64,000 bases of DNA, taken from NCBI GenBank assembly GCA_014323545.1, contig CP058647.1:3202001-3266000 (forward strand). The letters run 5' to 3'. The notes under the pieces are model-generated. The model saw only the letters and a program-made list of their open reading frames with translations, had not been told where the DNA came from and searched no databases. The first letter of the stretch is position 1. Every line of letters starts with the position of its first letter. Shown piece by piece: positions 13,981-19,710 of the stretch. The position numbers and the translations under genes are program-made. The stretch is from Hyphobacterium sp. CCMP332 (GTDB taxonomy: Bacteria > Bacteroidota > Bacteroidia > Cytophagales > CCMP332).

Positions 13981-15081
13981 TCATTTATTGACACAGGCTA
14001 TTTTTAAAGTGCGCTCAGCTTCTGCAACACCCATGTTTTTGGCTTTTTCCAAATAAGCGCAGCCTTCGAATTTCCCAAAAGAATTGATCATCACATAGCC
14101 GAGATAATAATTGGACCACCCGAACTCTGGATTTAAACTAACCGATGATTCAAAATCATTCATGGCTTTATACATATCGCCTTTCTCCATATTTGCTTTT
14201 CCTGCATAAAAAAAACCCAGTGGATCGTCTTTGATATTGGCGGTATAAGTATTCAAATCACTTGCTGCCTTTTCAAATTCCAATTGTTCAAGGAAAACAA
14301 GGCCTCTGTTGAAATAGGCATTCCAATAGCTGCTATCCATGGCAATGGCAGCATTGAAAGCTTCTATTGCTTCTTCGGGTATGCGTTGATTAAGATATAA
14401 AAAACCGAGTGCAAATTGAATATTGGGATCTTCCTTGTCCAATTCCGAGGCTTTTTTAAAATCATTGAGTGCAGAAGGCATATTTCCAATTTCCTGGAAC
14501 ATTAGGGCGCGATTGAAAAAATAGCTGGCTTTATTGGGATCGAATTTTATGGCTTTGTTATAGGCTTCTATTGCTTTAGCTTTTTCATTCAATGCCCCGT
14601 AACTTATCCCCATATTGTAGTGAACAGCGGCATAACCGTTATCAAGAAGAAGTGCTTTTTCATAAACCTCAAGAGCATTTTTTTGATTACCCACCAGTGT
14701 AAAACATTTTCCCAGATTCAATAATGCCTTTTTGTTTTTATCGTTTAATGCCAAGGATTTTTCAAAATCATTAATGGCTTCTTCAAGTTCATTAACTTTC
14801 ATTAAAGCATAACCTCTGTTGTAATAGGCAGTCGCATTATTTGGATTCAGATTAATGGATTTGCTAAAAGATAAAATTCCCTCCTTGTAATTTTGGTATA
14901 ATAAACTCTGAGTGATCCCTTTTTTAAAATAGGCATTGGCCAGACTTATCGAATCTTCCTTCGGAATTTGCTTGGGAGGCTCCTCTACCTTGGTTTCAAT
15001 TTTTATTGGATCATTTTGAGCCCAAAGATTTAAAGCGCATCCCATCAAAACAATGGATAATATGAGTTTGTAGTTGCCCAA
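13981..15081 (-). CDS. Exported TPR-repeat protein
   Basis: A 366-residue protein with a signal peptide (YKLILSIVLMGCALNLWAQ) and about eight tandem TPR units, for example NPNNATAYYNRGYALMKVNE and DNGYAAVHYNMGISYGALNE. The signal peptide only makes sense from TTG 15081, so that start is used. A Sel1-like final repeat (GCAYLEKAKNMGVAEAERTL) ends the protein. It probably acts as a periplasmic scaffold; its partner is unknown. It sits just downstream of the polyketide operon, with a 47-base gap, and could be read through from it. Confidence 0.82.
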   Translation of the reverse strand: MGNYKLILSIVLMGCALNLWAQNDPIKIETKVEEPPKQIPKEDSISLANAYFKKGITQSLLYQNYKEGILSFSKSINLNPNNATAYYNRGYALMKVNELEEAINDFEKSLALNDKNKKALLNLGKCFTLVGNQKNALEVYEKALLLDNGYAAVHYNMGISYGALNEKAKAIEAYNKAIKFDPNKASYFFNRALMFQEIGNMPSALNDFKKASELDKEDPNIQFALGFLYLNQRIPEEAIEAFNAAIAMDSSYWNAYFNRGLVFLEQLEFEKAASDLNTYTANIKDDPLGFFYAGKANMEKGDMYKAMNDFESSVSLNPEFGWSNYYLGYVMINSFGKFEGCAYLEKAKNMGVAEAERTLKIACVNK

Positions 15082-15128
15082 ATTCTAATGCTATAATAAA
15101 CCAGTCCAAAGGTCTGGATTTATAAAAA

Positions 15129-15842
15129 CTAAAAATGTCCTATTTTATTCTTAAAGGCACTTACCTGCCATCGAAAGGCCCAGTTCCACACAATAGTAAC
15201 ATCTTTGAAACTTGTATTTACGAAAATTTTTCGGATTTCGTTTTTTTTAAATGCTCTTTTCACCGATAAAGGTGCATCGTGTTGTACCAAATAAGAGCCA
15301 TTCAATAACCTGGTAAGAAACCAGATTGAATAATAGGCCAGGGGATGGCGATGTAGATCATTGATTATAATCACATTGGCTTCAGAATCGGATATAAGAT
15401 TAATAATTTGACTTAATTCCTTATCACTGAAATGATGACAAAAAAGATTCATGGTAACAATATCTGCTTTTAAATCTTCTGAATTTGCTTCAAATATGTT
15501 TTTTCTGAGAAATGAAATATTGTCAAATTCTGAGCAGGATTTCGCCGCATAATCAATCATAAACTGATTGGCATCCAGGCCGGCAAATTCAATGTTTAAA
15601 TGATTTCGGTTCGCCCATTTGGCCATTTGTTTTAACATATCTCCGGCACCCGAGCCGATATCAATGAGCCTGTATTTTCGATCTTTCCTTAGTTTTAACT
15701 TTTTAAGTGCAGACAGAGTTACCTTATAGCCTCCCAAATAGCTATTCACCATTTCGAGCTCTCTAAGGTTTTGCTTTAAAGCATCGGATGCCAAATTGAG
15801 GTCATCCATTAATTCCTTTTGACTCGAACGCTGCTTAAACAT
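15129..15842 (-). CDS. SAM-dependent methyltransferase of the type III PKS locus
   Basis: A class I methyltransferase of 237 residues. Motif I is LIDIGSGAGDMLKQMAKW, the acidic motif II is FAGLDANQFMIDYA, and the post-I strand is ADIVTMNLFCHHF. The start overlaps the end of the polyketide synthase gene by eight bases, so the two are co-translated and the likely substrate is the PKS product (O- or C-methylation of a phenolic ring). Methyltransferases directly after type III PKS genes are common in bacterial phenolic-lipid and quinone loci; the exact position methylated cannot be read from sequence. Confidence 0.85.
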   Translation of the reverse strand: MFKQRSSQKELMDDLNLASDALKQNLRELEMVNSYLGGYKVTLSALKKLKLRKDRKYRLIDIGSGAGDMLKQMAKWANRNHLNIEFAGLDANQFMIDYAAKSCSEFDNISFLRKNIFEANSEDLKADIVTMNLFCHHFSDKELSQIINLISDSEANVIIINDLHRHPLAYYSIWFLTRLLNGSYLVQHDAPLSVKRAFKKNEIRKIFVNTSFKDVTIVWNWAFRWQVSAFKNKIGHF

Positions 15843-16923
15843 AGGCGAATTCCAATAATGCAGATTCCATTGTCAGACCGGGACCAAAAGCCATGCTAAG
15901 GATCTTTTCTTTGTTATTCGAATTATCGAGGCTCTCCATTAATCTTTTCAGCACAAAAATTACTGTCACTGATGACATATTGCCATAGTCACGTAAAATG
16001 TCATAAGAATGTTGAAGTGCGTTATTTTTTTTACCTATTTTTTTAGAAAGGGTATCCAATATGGCCCTGCCTCCCGGATGAATGGCAAAATGATCAACAG
16101 AGCTTTCCTTACCCATGTCCTTTTCTAATTGATCAAGTAATTGATCCATGCTGCCATTTAACAATTTTGGAATATAAGAGGAGAGTTTCATTTCAAATCC
16201 AAAGTCCCTGATATGCCAAGCCATATCGCTCAAACCTTCGGTAATTAATTCACAATAAAAAGATTCGTTCTTTATGTTTTTGCCTTTCATGGGTTGCGAT
16301 TGCACAATGCAGGCCGCGGAGCCATCTGCAAAAAGCGCATTGGATAAGAGAAAATCTTCGTCTAAATCTTTTTGAAAATGAATAGAGCATATTTCAACAC
16401 CCACCATTAAAACTTTTGCCTTTGGATCACTCTTGACAATTGAATCAGCGAGTTTTAATACGGTTAAACCTGCATAACAGCCCATAAAATTGACATTGAA
16501 TCGCTGAATATTAGGACTTAATCCCATGTGCCTTACCAGGTCGATATCCAGGCCCGGAGCATACATGCCTGTACAGCTAAATGTGATCAAATGCGTTATT
16601 TCCTTTACAGGAAAATCAATTTTTAGATCGTGAACAGATTTTTCAGCAAGGATCAAAGCCTCTTTTTCATAAATCTGCATGCGCTCTGAAGTGCTGAATA
16701 GCTTGTTTTCTTTTTTGTTAAAATGGAAATTCTTATCGCGCGTGAAGGAAGAAACTACGGTATATCTTTTGTCAATTTGTGTTTGTCGGTATAGTACTGA
16801 TAGTTTCCTTTCCAGCACTTTATCGGCCTTTAAGGTTGCAACCATAAACTTAAATGCATCTTCCTGACTTATGGCGTGTTCGGGATTTGCACAACCTATA
16901 TGCGTGATATAACTTTCGTTCAA
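15835..16923 (-). CDS. Type III polyketide synthase (chalcone/stilbene synthase family)
   Basis: Iteratively condenses malonyl-CoA onto a starter acyl-CoA without an acyl carrier. The catalytic triad is complete: Cys149 in NFMGCYAGLTVL, His282 in HFAIHPGGRAILD and Asn315 in RDYGNMSSVTVIF. Length is 362 residues, normal for the family. The only usable start in frame is TTG 16923. It begins a two-gene operon with the methyltransferase, and its start codon lies 12 bases from the ATG of the divergent prenyltransferase. Product class (alkylresorcinol, pyrone or naphthol) depends on starter and cyclisation and is not predictable here. Confidence 0.93.
   Translation of the reverse strand: MNESYITHIGCANPEHAISQEDAFKFMVATLKADKVLERKLSVLYRQTQIDKRYTVVSSFTRDKNFHFNKKENKLFSTSERMQIYEKEALILAEKSVHDLKIDFPVKEITHLITFSCTGMYAPGLDIDLVRHMGLSPNIQRFNVNFMGCYAGLTVLKLADSIVKSDPKAKVLMVGVEICSIHFQKDLDEDFLLSNALFADGSAACIVQSQPMKGKNIKNESFYCELITEGLSDMAWHIRDFGFEMKLSSYIPKLLNGSMDQLLDQLEKDMGKESSVDHFAIHPGGRAILDTLSKKIGKKNNALQHSYDILRDYGNMSSVTVIFVLKRLMESLDNSNNKEKILSMAFGPGLTMESALLEFAYV
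16886..16917 (+). promoter_or_regulatory. Candidate promoter of the UbiA-like gene inside the PKS coding region
   Basis: TTTG at 16886-16889, then 20 bases, then TAACTTTC at 16910-16917 (one base off TAnnTTTG). It is inside the first codons of the divergent PKS gene and about 20 bases before the prenyltransferase ATG. Confidence 0.45.
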
Positions 16924-16935
16924 TTTTTCAATTTT

Positions 16936-17805
16936 ATGATCAGTAAGTCAAGCCGTCAGCATTTGCGAATCCCGTTTTCAATTTTTTTATTGCCGGTATT
17001 CGTATTTGCACTCAGCCAAAGCAGCTATGCAGACTATTTATCGGTCATTTTAATGTTCATTGCCCTGCATCTCTTTGTGTACCCTGCAAGTAACGGATTT
17101 AATTCTTTTTATGATAAAGATGAAAAATCCATCGGTGGTTTGAAATATCCTCCAAAAGTTGATAAAAATTTATTGCACACCTCACTAATTTTTGATCTTA
17201 TTGGCCTGGCTATCTCTATTTATATTTCCATTTATTTCGCTATCGCAATCTTGATTTATGGTCTGGTTTCAAAGGCATACTCGCATCCCGCCATCCGCCT
17301 AAAAAAGTATCCAATTGCGGGCCTATTGACGGTAGGTGTTTTTCAGGGAGGATTTATTTACCTGGCTTGTATTCAGGTCTTTGATAACGTGCATTTATCC
17401 CAATTAACTGAACTTAAATATCTGCTTCCCGCATTTATTTCAAGCGTTCTATTGATTGGTTCTTACCCAATGACTCAAATATATCAGCATGATGAAGATC
17501 AAAAGCGTGGGGATGTCTCCATTAGTATAAAGCTGGGTATTAGAGGCACTTTTCTGTTCACGGGTATAGTATTTCTAATGGCCGATCTGCTTTTTGGTCT
17601 GTATTTTAAAATGATGGGCAAAATCAATCATTTTTTTATTCTTCAGGCTTTTTTGCTACCCGTTCTTCTTTATTTTCAGTGGTGGATGTTAAAAGTCTGG
17701 AAAAATCCCGAAGAAGCTAATTTTGACAGAACTATGAGGCTAAACATGATTTCCTCAGTCTGCATGATTGTTTTTTTTCTTACGATTTATTTTCTCAATA
17801 ATTAA
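16936..17805 (+). CDS. UbiA-family prenyltransferase
   Basis: Integral membrane enzyme that attaches a polyprenyl chain to an aromatic or similar acceptor. About eight hydrophobic helices are visible. The first Asp-rich motif is altered (NGFNSFYDKDEKSIGG, where the family usually has NDxxDxxxD), and the second is YQHDEDQKRGDVSISIKLG. Start is ATG 16936, giving 289 residues; a GTG at 16876 would overlap the PKS gene and is rejected. Together with the PKS and methyltransferase it suggests a prenylated polyketide. Its end overlaps the oxidoreductase gene by four bases, tail to tail. Confidence 0.85.
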   Translation: MISKSSRQHLRIPFSIFLLPVFVFALSQSSYADYLSVILMFIALHLFVYPASNGFNSFYDKDEKSIGGLKYPPKVDKNLLHTSLIFDLIGLAISIYISIYFAIAILIYGLVSKAYSHPAIRLKKYPIAGLLTVGVFQGGFIYLACIQVFDNVHLSQLTELKYLLPAFISSVLLIGSYPMTQIYQHDEDQKRGDVSISIKLGIRGTFLFTGIVFLMADLLFGLYFKMMGKINHFFILQAFLLPVLLYFQWWMLKVWKNPEEANFDRTMRLNMISSVCMIVFFLTIYFLNN

Positions 17806-18899
17806 AATACCCTACCGTGTGTTTTGCGAATCAGCTGATCTCTGAGGTAGGGCATAGCCTTAAAAAAGCTTAAAGTCATGTTGGTAAGGCTCTTATTGCC
17901 AAATGTGCCTTGTATCGCTCTGCCGATCCATAGACGCTTTGAAAAATTCATTTCCCAGTTCTTTTTATAATTATTTTGACCCTGTCCTAAAATAATACTT
18001 TCAGCCAGTAATTTTGAAGAGTGTATTGCCATTGCCATACCGTTTCCGCAAAGCGGTGCTATCATTCCAGCAGCATCTCCACACATCAATATGCCATTTT
18101 CGTTGATCTCTTTTTTACTGAATGTGATTTCGTTTATGGCAAGCGGTTTTTCATAAAGAAATTCAGCATTGTTAAATATGTCTTTTAAATGCGGGTTATC
18201 AGACAAAACATTTTGCTCCAAATTTTGAATGCTTCCATGGTTCTTTAATTCCGAAGCGGCGACAAGATAGCAAAGACAGTACTTGTCATTTTCCACCCGG
18301 GATATTCCACAATAGCCATTTCTAAAGTTGTGAAGTGCAATCAGATCCTTATCCTGATTGTATTTTATATGATACTTAATACCTACATAAGGAGATCTTT
18401 TATTCAGAAATTTTCGCCTGAGTCTGGAATCTATATTACTTCTTTTTCCCTGAGCACCAATCAATTGATCCACTTCAAATTGACGGTTGTCATTGCTTTT
18501 GATCAGCCAGTTAGCCTCTTTTTTTTCTATATGCTGAATTAGGGTATTCTCAAAAATTTCCGTTCCGGAATGTCGTGAAATTTTGGCCAGCTCCGCATCA
18601 AATACATATCGGCTCAGACCAAATCCTCCTATGTCCAATTTGCTTTTTAAGGATATCTCTGAGGTACTGCTTACAAACAGCTTATTTATCCTGACAGCTC
18701 CATGCACAAAAGGATCAAAACCCAATGATTTTAAATAGGGCAAGGCTTCCATTGAAACGTATTCGCCGCAAACCCTGTGAAATGGATAGCTTTTCTTTTC
18801 AAAGAGGGCGGTTTTATAACCTGCATTTGAAAGTCTTATCGAAAGGCACAGACCCGCCAGTCCTCCGCCAATAATTCCTATGTCATATTTATTGGCCAA
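17802..18899 (-). CDS. FAD-dependent oxidoreductase, geranylgeranyl-reductase-like
   Basis: A 365-residue flavoprotein. The N-terminal dinucleotide fold is GIIGGGLAGLCLSIRLSN, followed by HRVCGEYVSMEALPYL and the second FAD motif ILMCGDAAGMIAPLCGNGMA. The CGEYVS segment and spacing resemble the geranylgeranyl reductase / p-hydroxybenzoate hydroxylase group. In this locus it could reduce the prenyl chain or hydroxylate the aromatic ring; sequence alone does not decide. It overlaps the upstream TPR gene by 11 bases, so those two form a minus-strand operon. Confidence 0.85.
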   Translation of the reverse strand: MANKYDIGIIGGGLAGLCLSIRLSNAGYKTALFEKKSYPFHRVCGEYVSMEALPYLKSLGFDPFVHGAVRINKLFVSSTSEISLKSKLDIGGFGLSRYVFDAELAKISRHSGTEIFENTLIQHIEKKEANWLIKSNDNRQFEVDQLIGAQGKRSNIDSRLRRKFLNKRSPYVGIKYHIKYNQDKDLIALHNFRNGYCGISRVENDKYCLCYLVAASELKNHGSIQNLEQNVLSDNPHLKDIFNNAEFLYEKPLAINEITFSKKEINENGILMCGDAAGMIAPLCGNGMAMAIHSSKLLAESIILGQGQNNYKKNWEMNFSKRLWIGRAIQGTFGNKSLTNMTLSFFKAMPYLRDQLIRKTHGRVF

Positions 18900-19710
18900 A
18901 TCCTTTGGATTCTATGATTTCAAGAAAATGCCTGGCTTTCATTTGGTCAAAACGCTCCATAATAAGGTAATCTTCTCTTGGAATTTGATCATTGCATTTA
19001 TTGAGATAATAAATGGCTTTTTCATACTGTTCATCGAGATAATACATTTTACCCATAAACAATAGGTTTCCAATATTGTCGGGATTGATTTCAAGAGATT
19101 TTTTAGTGAGTGCGATGCCCTTTTCTTTATCGGGCCATGTCAATACCACAGGAATGTACGGTGCCATATAATAAACAAGGCCCAGCATCCGGTAACCTAT
19201 GCCATTTTCATATATGGGATCCAAGTCAACAATTTTTTCACAGGTAGCTTTAATCCTTGGCCCGAGCCCGTCGTAAGCGGCCCTGAAAATACCGTAATAT
19301 TGAATCCATTTTCCTGCGGAAGCGAGATACCAAAGCTTTATGCCAACATCCTCCGGATACTCGATAGCCAATTGTTCACCCAACTCTTTGGCTTCATTGT
19401 AAATGAGTTTTCTATGTTCATCAGGTAATCCTGTGTACATGCCCTTAAAATGCAATGACCTTAAGTAAAAGTAGGCGCTTCTTTGCCGGTATTCCGAACA
19501 GTTTAATCCTTTTTTGAAATGATAAATAGCGCTATCAATGTATTTAGACTTTGCATGCCAATCATTGGCGCCATTGGCCCTTAATTTGAAAAACAGCTGG
19601 CCTTCTTTAAAGTGTTCTTTGCATTTTGATTTTAAAAGCAGAGCCTCTTCCGAATTCGGTTGAGAAAGTGTACCCGAAAGAAAAATAATAACAGAGATCA
19701 ATAATTTCAT
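18889..19710 (-). CDS. Exported TPR-like protein beside the polyketide locus
   Basis: A 273-residue protein with a signal peptide (MKLLISVIIFLSGTLSQ) and helical repeats, of which NPDNIGNLLFMGKMYYLDEQ followed by YEKAIYYLNKC is the clearest TPR. Cys and aromatic residues are frequent in the middle part (GLNCSEYRQRSAYFYLRSL). No enzymatic motif is seen. Its end overlaps the oxidoreductase gene, which suggests a shared transcript and perhaps a role in handling the product or enzyme assembly at the envelope, but this is inference. Confidence 0.7.
   Translation of the reverse strand: MKLLISVIIFLSGTLSQPNSEEALLLKSKCKEHFKEGQLFFKLRANGANDWHAKSKYIDSAIYHFKKGLNCSEYRQRSAYFYLRSLHFKGMYTGLPDEHRKLIYNEAKELGEQLAIEYPEDVGIKLWYLASAGKWIQYYGIFRAAYDGLGPRIKATCEKIVDLDPIYENGIGYRMLGLVYYMAPYIPVVLTWPDKEKGIALTKKSLEINPDNIGNLLFMGKMYYLDEQYEKAIYYLNKCNDQIPREDYLIMERFDQMKARHFLEIIESKGFGQ

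Follow-up and report, generated by a model that had tools for sequence, protein, structure and literature searches.

We analysed a 64,000-nucleotide stretch of the Hyphobacterium sp. CCMP332 genome (contig CP058647.1, positions 3,202,001 to 3,266,000; hereafter the window), in which a compact locus at window positions 15129-18899 carries four genes, encoding a class I S-adenosylmethionine-dependent methyltransferase, a type III polyketide synthase (PKS), a UbiA-superfamily membrane protein and a flavin adenine dinucleotide (FAD)-dependent oxidoreductase. All four had been proposed in an earlier sequence-only reading, and each was recovered at its place. The methyltransferase gene (15129..15842, minus strand; Pfam Methyltransf_31, 51 bits, 1.7e-13) shares 8 nt with the PKS gene (15835..16923, minus strand), in agreement with the translational overlap claimed previously. 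The UbiA gene (16936..17805, plus strand) diverges from the PKS gene, the two starts lying about 12 bp from each other; its open reading frame (ORF) was called mechanically as 16876-17805, and the ATG at 16936 is backed by alignment. The UbiA gene is in turn positioned tail-to-tail with the FAD gene (17802..18899, minus strand), with 4 nt shared. No promoter or terminator signals above chance were found at the locus.

The PKS has the chalcone/stilbene synthase fold and belongs to the type III enzymes by both Pfam domains (Chal_sti_synt_N/C, 108/86 bits) and by the Cys-His-Asn triad. This triad, described as complete in the earlier reading, is indeed intact (C149/H282/N315), and its residues are conserved in 125, 125 and 124 of 125 PKSs that have a UbiA partner. 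Among the same 125 enzymes C149, H282, C117, C179, H182, W236 and S317 are invariant and M245 nearly so, C117 being the second thiol and W236 forming the aromatic wall. Identity as DpgA, the 3,5-dihydroxyphenylacetyl-coenzyme A (CoA) synthase, was rejected (NCBIfam NF042429, 160 bits vs a cut-off of 425). The nine-residue spacing of W236 and M245 equals that of G284 and M293 in ArsC; the resorcinol producer ArsB carries W281 at the G284 position, and this position and that of ArsC M293 steer the choice between resorcinol and pyrone (PMC6274091). In addition, C179 and A122 correspond to C205 and A148 of PKS18, of which C205 has been reported as a tunnel residue. The cavity residues are identical in PKSs of Bacteroidota families f33-f54 that lack UbiA, which suggests that UbiA is most simply a downstream addition.

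The UbiA protein is a member of its superfamily (PF01040, 55.6 bits vs a gathering threshold of 34.2), and its AlphaFold2 model (predicted local distance difference test score, pLDDT, 96.6) has the nine transmembrane helices of the fold. Foldseek matched it to UbiA homologs and, best of all, to archaeal digeranylgeranylglyceryl phosphate (DGGGP) synthase, with TM-scores of 0.6-0.7 and 14-22% identity, and none of the NCBIfam subfamily models reached its cut-off. Its motifs, NSFYDKDE and QIYQHDED in the window, follow a signature that delimits the clade of cluster-associated UbiA proteins: N-S-x-x-D-x-D, with the loop shortened by about 10 residues, and Y-P-x-x-Q-x-Y/F-Q-x-x-x-D where DxxxD would be expected. 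Throughout this clade the canonical motifs NDxxDxxxD and DxxxD are not found, the third Asp being missing and QxxxD standing instead. A quick tree was built from the cluster UbiA proteins, paralogs from their own genomes, other Bacteroidota paralogs, E. coli UbiA, MenA and CyoE; in it the cluster UbiA proteins and the unlinked UbiA of family f42 formed one 45-row clade (Shimodaira-Hasegawa-like approximate likelihood ratio test, 99). Thus the divergence noted at first sight holds, and the protein groups with neither of the housekeeping MenA and heme O types, a grouping that had been named as a possible refutation. Identity as MenA, heme O synthase or E. coli UbiA is ruled out by the tree and because the genome encodes MenA-like and heme-O-like paralogs besides. 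The paralogs in these genomes also include a third UbiA group (L094 and relatives; motifs INDYxDxKID and KDMEDxxGD), distinct from the cluster UbiA as well as from MenA and heme O synthase. The f42 proteins (L118-L126) share the unusual motifs, form a sister UbiA clade and have no linked PKS; the PKS locus of this family contains a methyltransferase, a classical hydroxylase and an upstream multidrug-exporter-like gene, and in a draw across the phylum a related PKS was present in 29/29 f42 genomes having this UbiA.

The FAD enzyme falls in the superfamily of geranylgeranyl reductases (GGRs), halogenases and aromatic hydroxylases (Pfam FAD_binding_3, 39 bits). Its model (pLDDT 92.2) had PltA, ChlB4, Bmp2, archaeal GGR (3oz2) and squalene epoxidase as the top Foldseek matches. 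The motif of flavin-dependent halogenases, which we take to be WxWxIP, was not found, since the window protein contains no WxW and reads GYCGIS in the alignment around residue 195; the likeness of the model to halogenases would thus be one of fold only.

The arrangement of the four genes is conserved in several families, far more than expected by chance. The order FAD>-<UbiA-PKS>MT> (MT, methyltransferase) is that of the window's own family and of its sister families; UbiA>PKS>MT>FAD> occurs in f24 and f27, two families belonging to the same class, and the divergent layout returns in f23 and f31. Compact layouts are kept in many families, also beyond the order. In a scan of named genomes, 41/80 loci contained all four genes, among them those of Fulvivirga, Chryseolinea, Belliella, Solitalea, Roseivirga and Ekhidna. 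In the fetched loci, with gaps measured from mechanical ORF starts, same-strand PKS and methyltransferase genes (90 pairs) mostly overlap or almost touch, divergent PKS and UbiA genes (76 pairs) are about 50 bp from each other, and among 38 cases of converging FAD and UbiA genes half are 2 bp apart. The closest association was observed in genus g53, where UbiA and PKS are joined in one frame of 652-653 amino acids in at least nine species (L062:6125-8080, L227-L234). A tenth species has separate genes overlapping in TTGA; TTG is the PKS start there and is retained within all the fused genes. Some metagenome bins under the titles Thalassobius, Thalassovita and Anammoxibacter (L155, L159, L162, L188) also contain Cytophagales-like UbiA proteins or full quartets; the bins are probably mixed or their record titles mistaken.

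The distribution of the genes was examined in 291 genomes of the order, taken as species representatives with mechanically called ORFs, using profiles for UbiA, methyltransferase and FAD enzyme that were constructed from the linked loci. A PKS was found in 224 genomes, as a single copy in almost all, and the profiles matched in 222 (UbiA), 194 (methyltransferase) and 213 (FAD enzyme); 192 of the 194 methyltransferase-positive genomes were also PKS-positive. The whole quartet is present in 184 genomes and none of the four genes in 62, the other 45 being intermediate: PKS+UbiA+FAD (21), PKS+UbiA (8), PKS+UbiA+methyltransferase (5), PKS+methyltransferase+FAD (3), PKS+FAD (3) and other combinations (5). 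PKS and UbiA occur together in 218 genomes, are both missing from 63 and are discordant in only ten (6+4), and the pair is kept despite loss of the methyltransferase or FAD gene in 34. The Fisher test for their co-occurrence (p = 1.4e-51) is overstated because the genomes are related, and independent events were therefore sought. In G055 the four genes are scattered over one contig (UbiA at about 1.63, FAD at 2.02, methyltransferase at 2.93 and PKS at 3.81 Mb), and its congener G025, 99% complete, has none of them; similarly, PKS and FAD genes lie 26 kb from each other in G069, with the methyltransferase on a separate contig, and none of the four is present in the congener G041. Such joint loss of scattered genes is hard to explain otherwise than by a shared pathway. 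The refutation named at the outset, that the genes would not stay together in relatives, was thus not borne out: they are clustered or, where unlinked, kept or lost jointly.

Family f10 and parts of f14 and f18 keep PKS and UbiA, often with the FAD enzyme, and have no detectable methyltransferase of this family, which suggests product variants without methylation. In three further genomes (G265, G058 with locus L089, and G029 with locus L090) UbiA is missing, the FAD enzyme and methyltransferase are closely related to those of the quartet and the PKS is very different (29% identity in G029 and G058), so that the PKS has apparently been swapped and the tailoring pair retained.

Taken together, the conserved clustering and the joint retention or loss of unlinked members support the earlier claim of one pathway: the methyltransferase, PKS, UbiA and FAD genes are a real pathway unit. 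We consider it rather probable that this unit is a four-enzyme pathway for a prenylated phenolic lipid, which most Cytophagales-type genomes carry as a single copy and retain by vertical descent, and a methylated, prenylated aromatic polyketide would be the most economical product. In the pathway proposed, the PKS would condense malonyl-CoA with an acyl starter, which is probably a fatty acyl-CoA or fatty acyl carrier protein, and close a resorcinol-type ring by aldol cyclisation; the methyltransferase would C- or O-methylate this ring; the FAD enzyme would oxidise or hydroxylate it, perhaps to a hydroquinone; and the UbiA protein would prenylate it at the membrane, with a polyprenyl diphosphate as donor. 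The data establish the identity of the genes, the PKS catalytic residues, the co-occurrence of the quartet across genomes, the fusion of UbiA and PKS in one frame and the separation of this UbiA clade from the quinone and heme enzymes. The mechanism is deduced from the named enzyme families and from the pattern of co-occurrence, and this applies to the starter, the ring type, the site and kind of methylation, the order of the steps, the prenyl donor and the final role as membrane antioxidant, redox lipid or structural lipid.

Several observations weigh against this pathway. So far no metabolite has been assigned to the locus, and the genomes, coming from one order, are non-independent samples. 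As both Asp motifs of the UbiA protein are altered, diphosphate chemistry is not assured. PKS11 also has Trp at the W236 position and is reported as a pyrone maker, and therefore the ring type indicated by W236 is a lean only. In the fused proteins, nine transmembrane helices in the canonical topology would place the UbiA C-terminus outside the cell, which would be awkward for an attached cytoplasmic, CoA-dependent PKS, and the TTG retained within the fused frames means that the PKS may also be made alone.

Among other explanations, the one that survives best is that the PKS product is an alkylpyrone, or a small aromatic of non-alkyl type, the prenyl chain being the sole lipid tail of the final molecule. 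Starter and cyclisation are unreadable from sequence, and PKSs with and without a UbiA partner share the same cavity; however, the invariant W236, Trp also in ArsB, and the conserved C179/A122 lean to long-chain resorcinol chemistry, and we hold this explanation as a lesser, though still appreciable, possibility.

It is also conceivable that the FAD enzyme saturates the prenyl chain of a prenylated polyketide, as implied by the GGR role first suggested for it. A UbiA protein is paired with a GGR in the tocopherol, chlorophyll and archaeal lipid pathways; GGR is the superfamily of the best NCBIfam match of the FAD enzyme (99 bits), and archaeal GGR 3oz2 and an archaeal lipid prenyltransferase are among the FAD matches and the best UbiA match, respectively. 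The description as GGR-like thus stands at superfamily level, but not for GGR proper, the score of 99.1 bits with TIGR02032 lying under the subfamily cut-off of 158.8. Furthermore, the FAD gene is found in 6/6 PKS-positive, UbiA-negative genomes of the order, families f26, f33, f35 and f53 have the trio of PKS, methyltransferase and GGR-superfamily-type flavoprotein with no UbiA nearby, and in f40, f42 and f48 hydroxylases of the PHBH/MhpA/UbiH type (PF01494, 172-190 bits) occupy the operon position of the FAD enzyme. Since the FAD gene persists without UbiA and classical hydroxylases replace it, ring oxidation is favoured: a role as ring oxygenase is likelier than one in reducing a prenyl chain, and chain saturation appears improbable.

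Equally doubtful is an ordinary alkylresorcinol core of the hidABC/srsABC kind, with a UbiA protein that acts separately, for example in terpene cyclisation or lipid handling, and merely occurs in the same lineages. The trio without UbiA is present in many Bacteroidota, as in cyanobacterial and planctomycetal operons (PMC10896814), and the UbiA motifs are non-canonical; nevertheless, UbiA and PKS are the tightest pair of the four genes, persisting when other members are lost, disappearing jointly when unlinked and fused in nine species. Finally, vertical inheritance of four unrelated core genes that are adjacent by chance would fit their lineage-wide, single-copy presence and the inflation of profile statistics by relatedness, but it is largely refuted by the joint loss of scattered genes within two genera, the repeated re-clustering in differing orders and the frame fusion, and we regard it as very improbable.

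The proposed four-enzyme pathway resembles several known systems in part. The srsABC genes of Streptomyces encode a PKS, a methyltransferase and a flavoprotein hydroxylase for methylated phenolic lipids and quinones, which is a comparable trio, but with no membrane prenyltransferase. In plants (cannabinoids, daurichromenic acid), the ring made by a type III PKS is prenylated by a membrane enzyme of the UbiA family; there the ring is carboxylated via a separate cyclase, the Asp motifs are canonical and the methyltransferase-flavoenzyme trio is absent. The nine-helix fold is common to the window UbiA, archaeal DGGGP synthase, UbiA and chlorophyll synthase, whereas the window protein differs in both Asp motifs and in its low identity. 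A compact PKS, class I methyltransferase and FAD oxidoreductase cluster, as here, is found in 58 planctomycetal operons and in cyanobacterial hidABC (hierridin); the PKSs of these trios have been shown to make alkylresorcinols, and one methyltransferase C-methylates (PMC10896814). The adjacency of the three genes is shared with the window, where UbiA sits between FAD and PKS; the hidABC and planctomycetal operons have another gene order and no UbiA, and their known products are alkylresorcinols or their methyl ethers. Moreover, the window PKS would belong to a clade different from that of HidC, provided that the hid-like group (L089, L090, L287), a label based on gene order and similarity to PKS11, represents it: identity to L089/L090 is 29%, with a stem of 3.6. 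The likeness to ArsB/ArsC of Azotobacter vinelandii comes from the W236/M245 spacing rather than direct alignment, and in the ars operon dedicated fatty acid synthases are present and UbiA is absent. It is routine for genome analyses of Bacteroidota to flag type III PKS clusters with no product assigned, as reported for Marivirga (PMC11225308) and Flavobacteriaceae (PMC10734526), and no description of a type III PKS-UbiA pathway or its product in Bacteroidota was found in the literature searched, which omits most subscription journals. Compared with the known trios, it is new that UbiA is an obligate partner, that retention is lineage-wide and that UbiA and PKS can be fused.

The exported tetratricopeptide repeat (TPR) proteins at the flanks had also been considered as possible members of the locus. 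This idea survives for the TPR-like protein with a signal peptide and weak similarity to TAtT and BstC (18889..19710, minus strand), whose gene lies upstream of the FAD gene and overlaps it, and within the same family only, since it adjoins the FAD gene in just two genomes of that family (L073, L080); it is possibly a lineage-specific accessory and a candidate for periplasmic lipid handling. The other TPR gene (13981-15081) is not conserved, and it was rejected as a pathway part together with the band-7 and citrate synthase genes, which look like family synteny. A gene of about 330 amino acids that is sometimes present between UbiA and FAD was likewise rejected, as it reads as an unrelated TIM-barrel-like exported protein.

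The analysis delimits a UbiA clade with unusual catalytic motifs. It also shows that, in one order, a type III PKS cluster with an obligate membrane partner comes near to being a core trait; a basic role in the membrane or in redox processes is thus favoured over that of a strain-specific antibiotic. We tentatively raise the possibility, which we rate as rather unlikely at present, that most Cytophagales and some other Bacteroidota make a hitherto undescribed near-core membrane lipid, a prenyl-(hydro)quinone or prenyl-phenol of polyketide origin, and that in its synthesis the PKS cooperates directly with a new UbiA subfamily whose diphosphate-binding motifs are reorganised. If true, bacteria would have their own equivalent of the PKS-UbiA pathways of plants and a second route to a lipoquinone-like molecule, one independent of chorismate.

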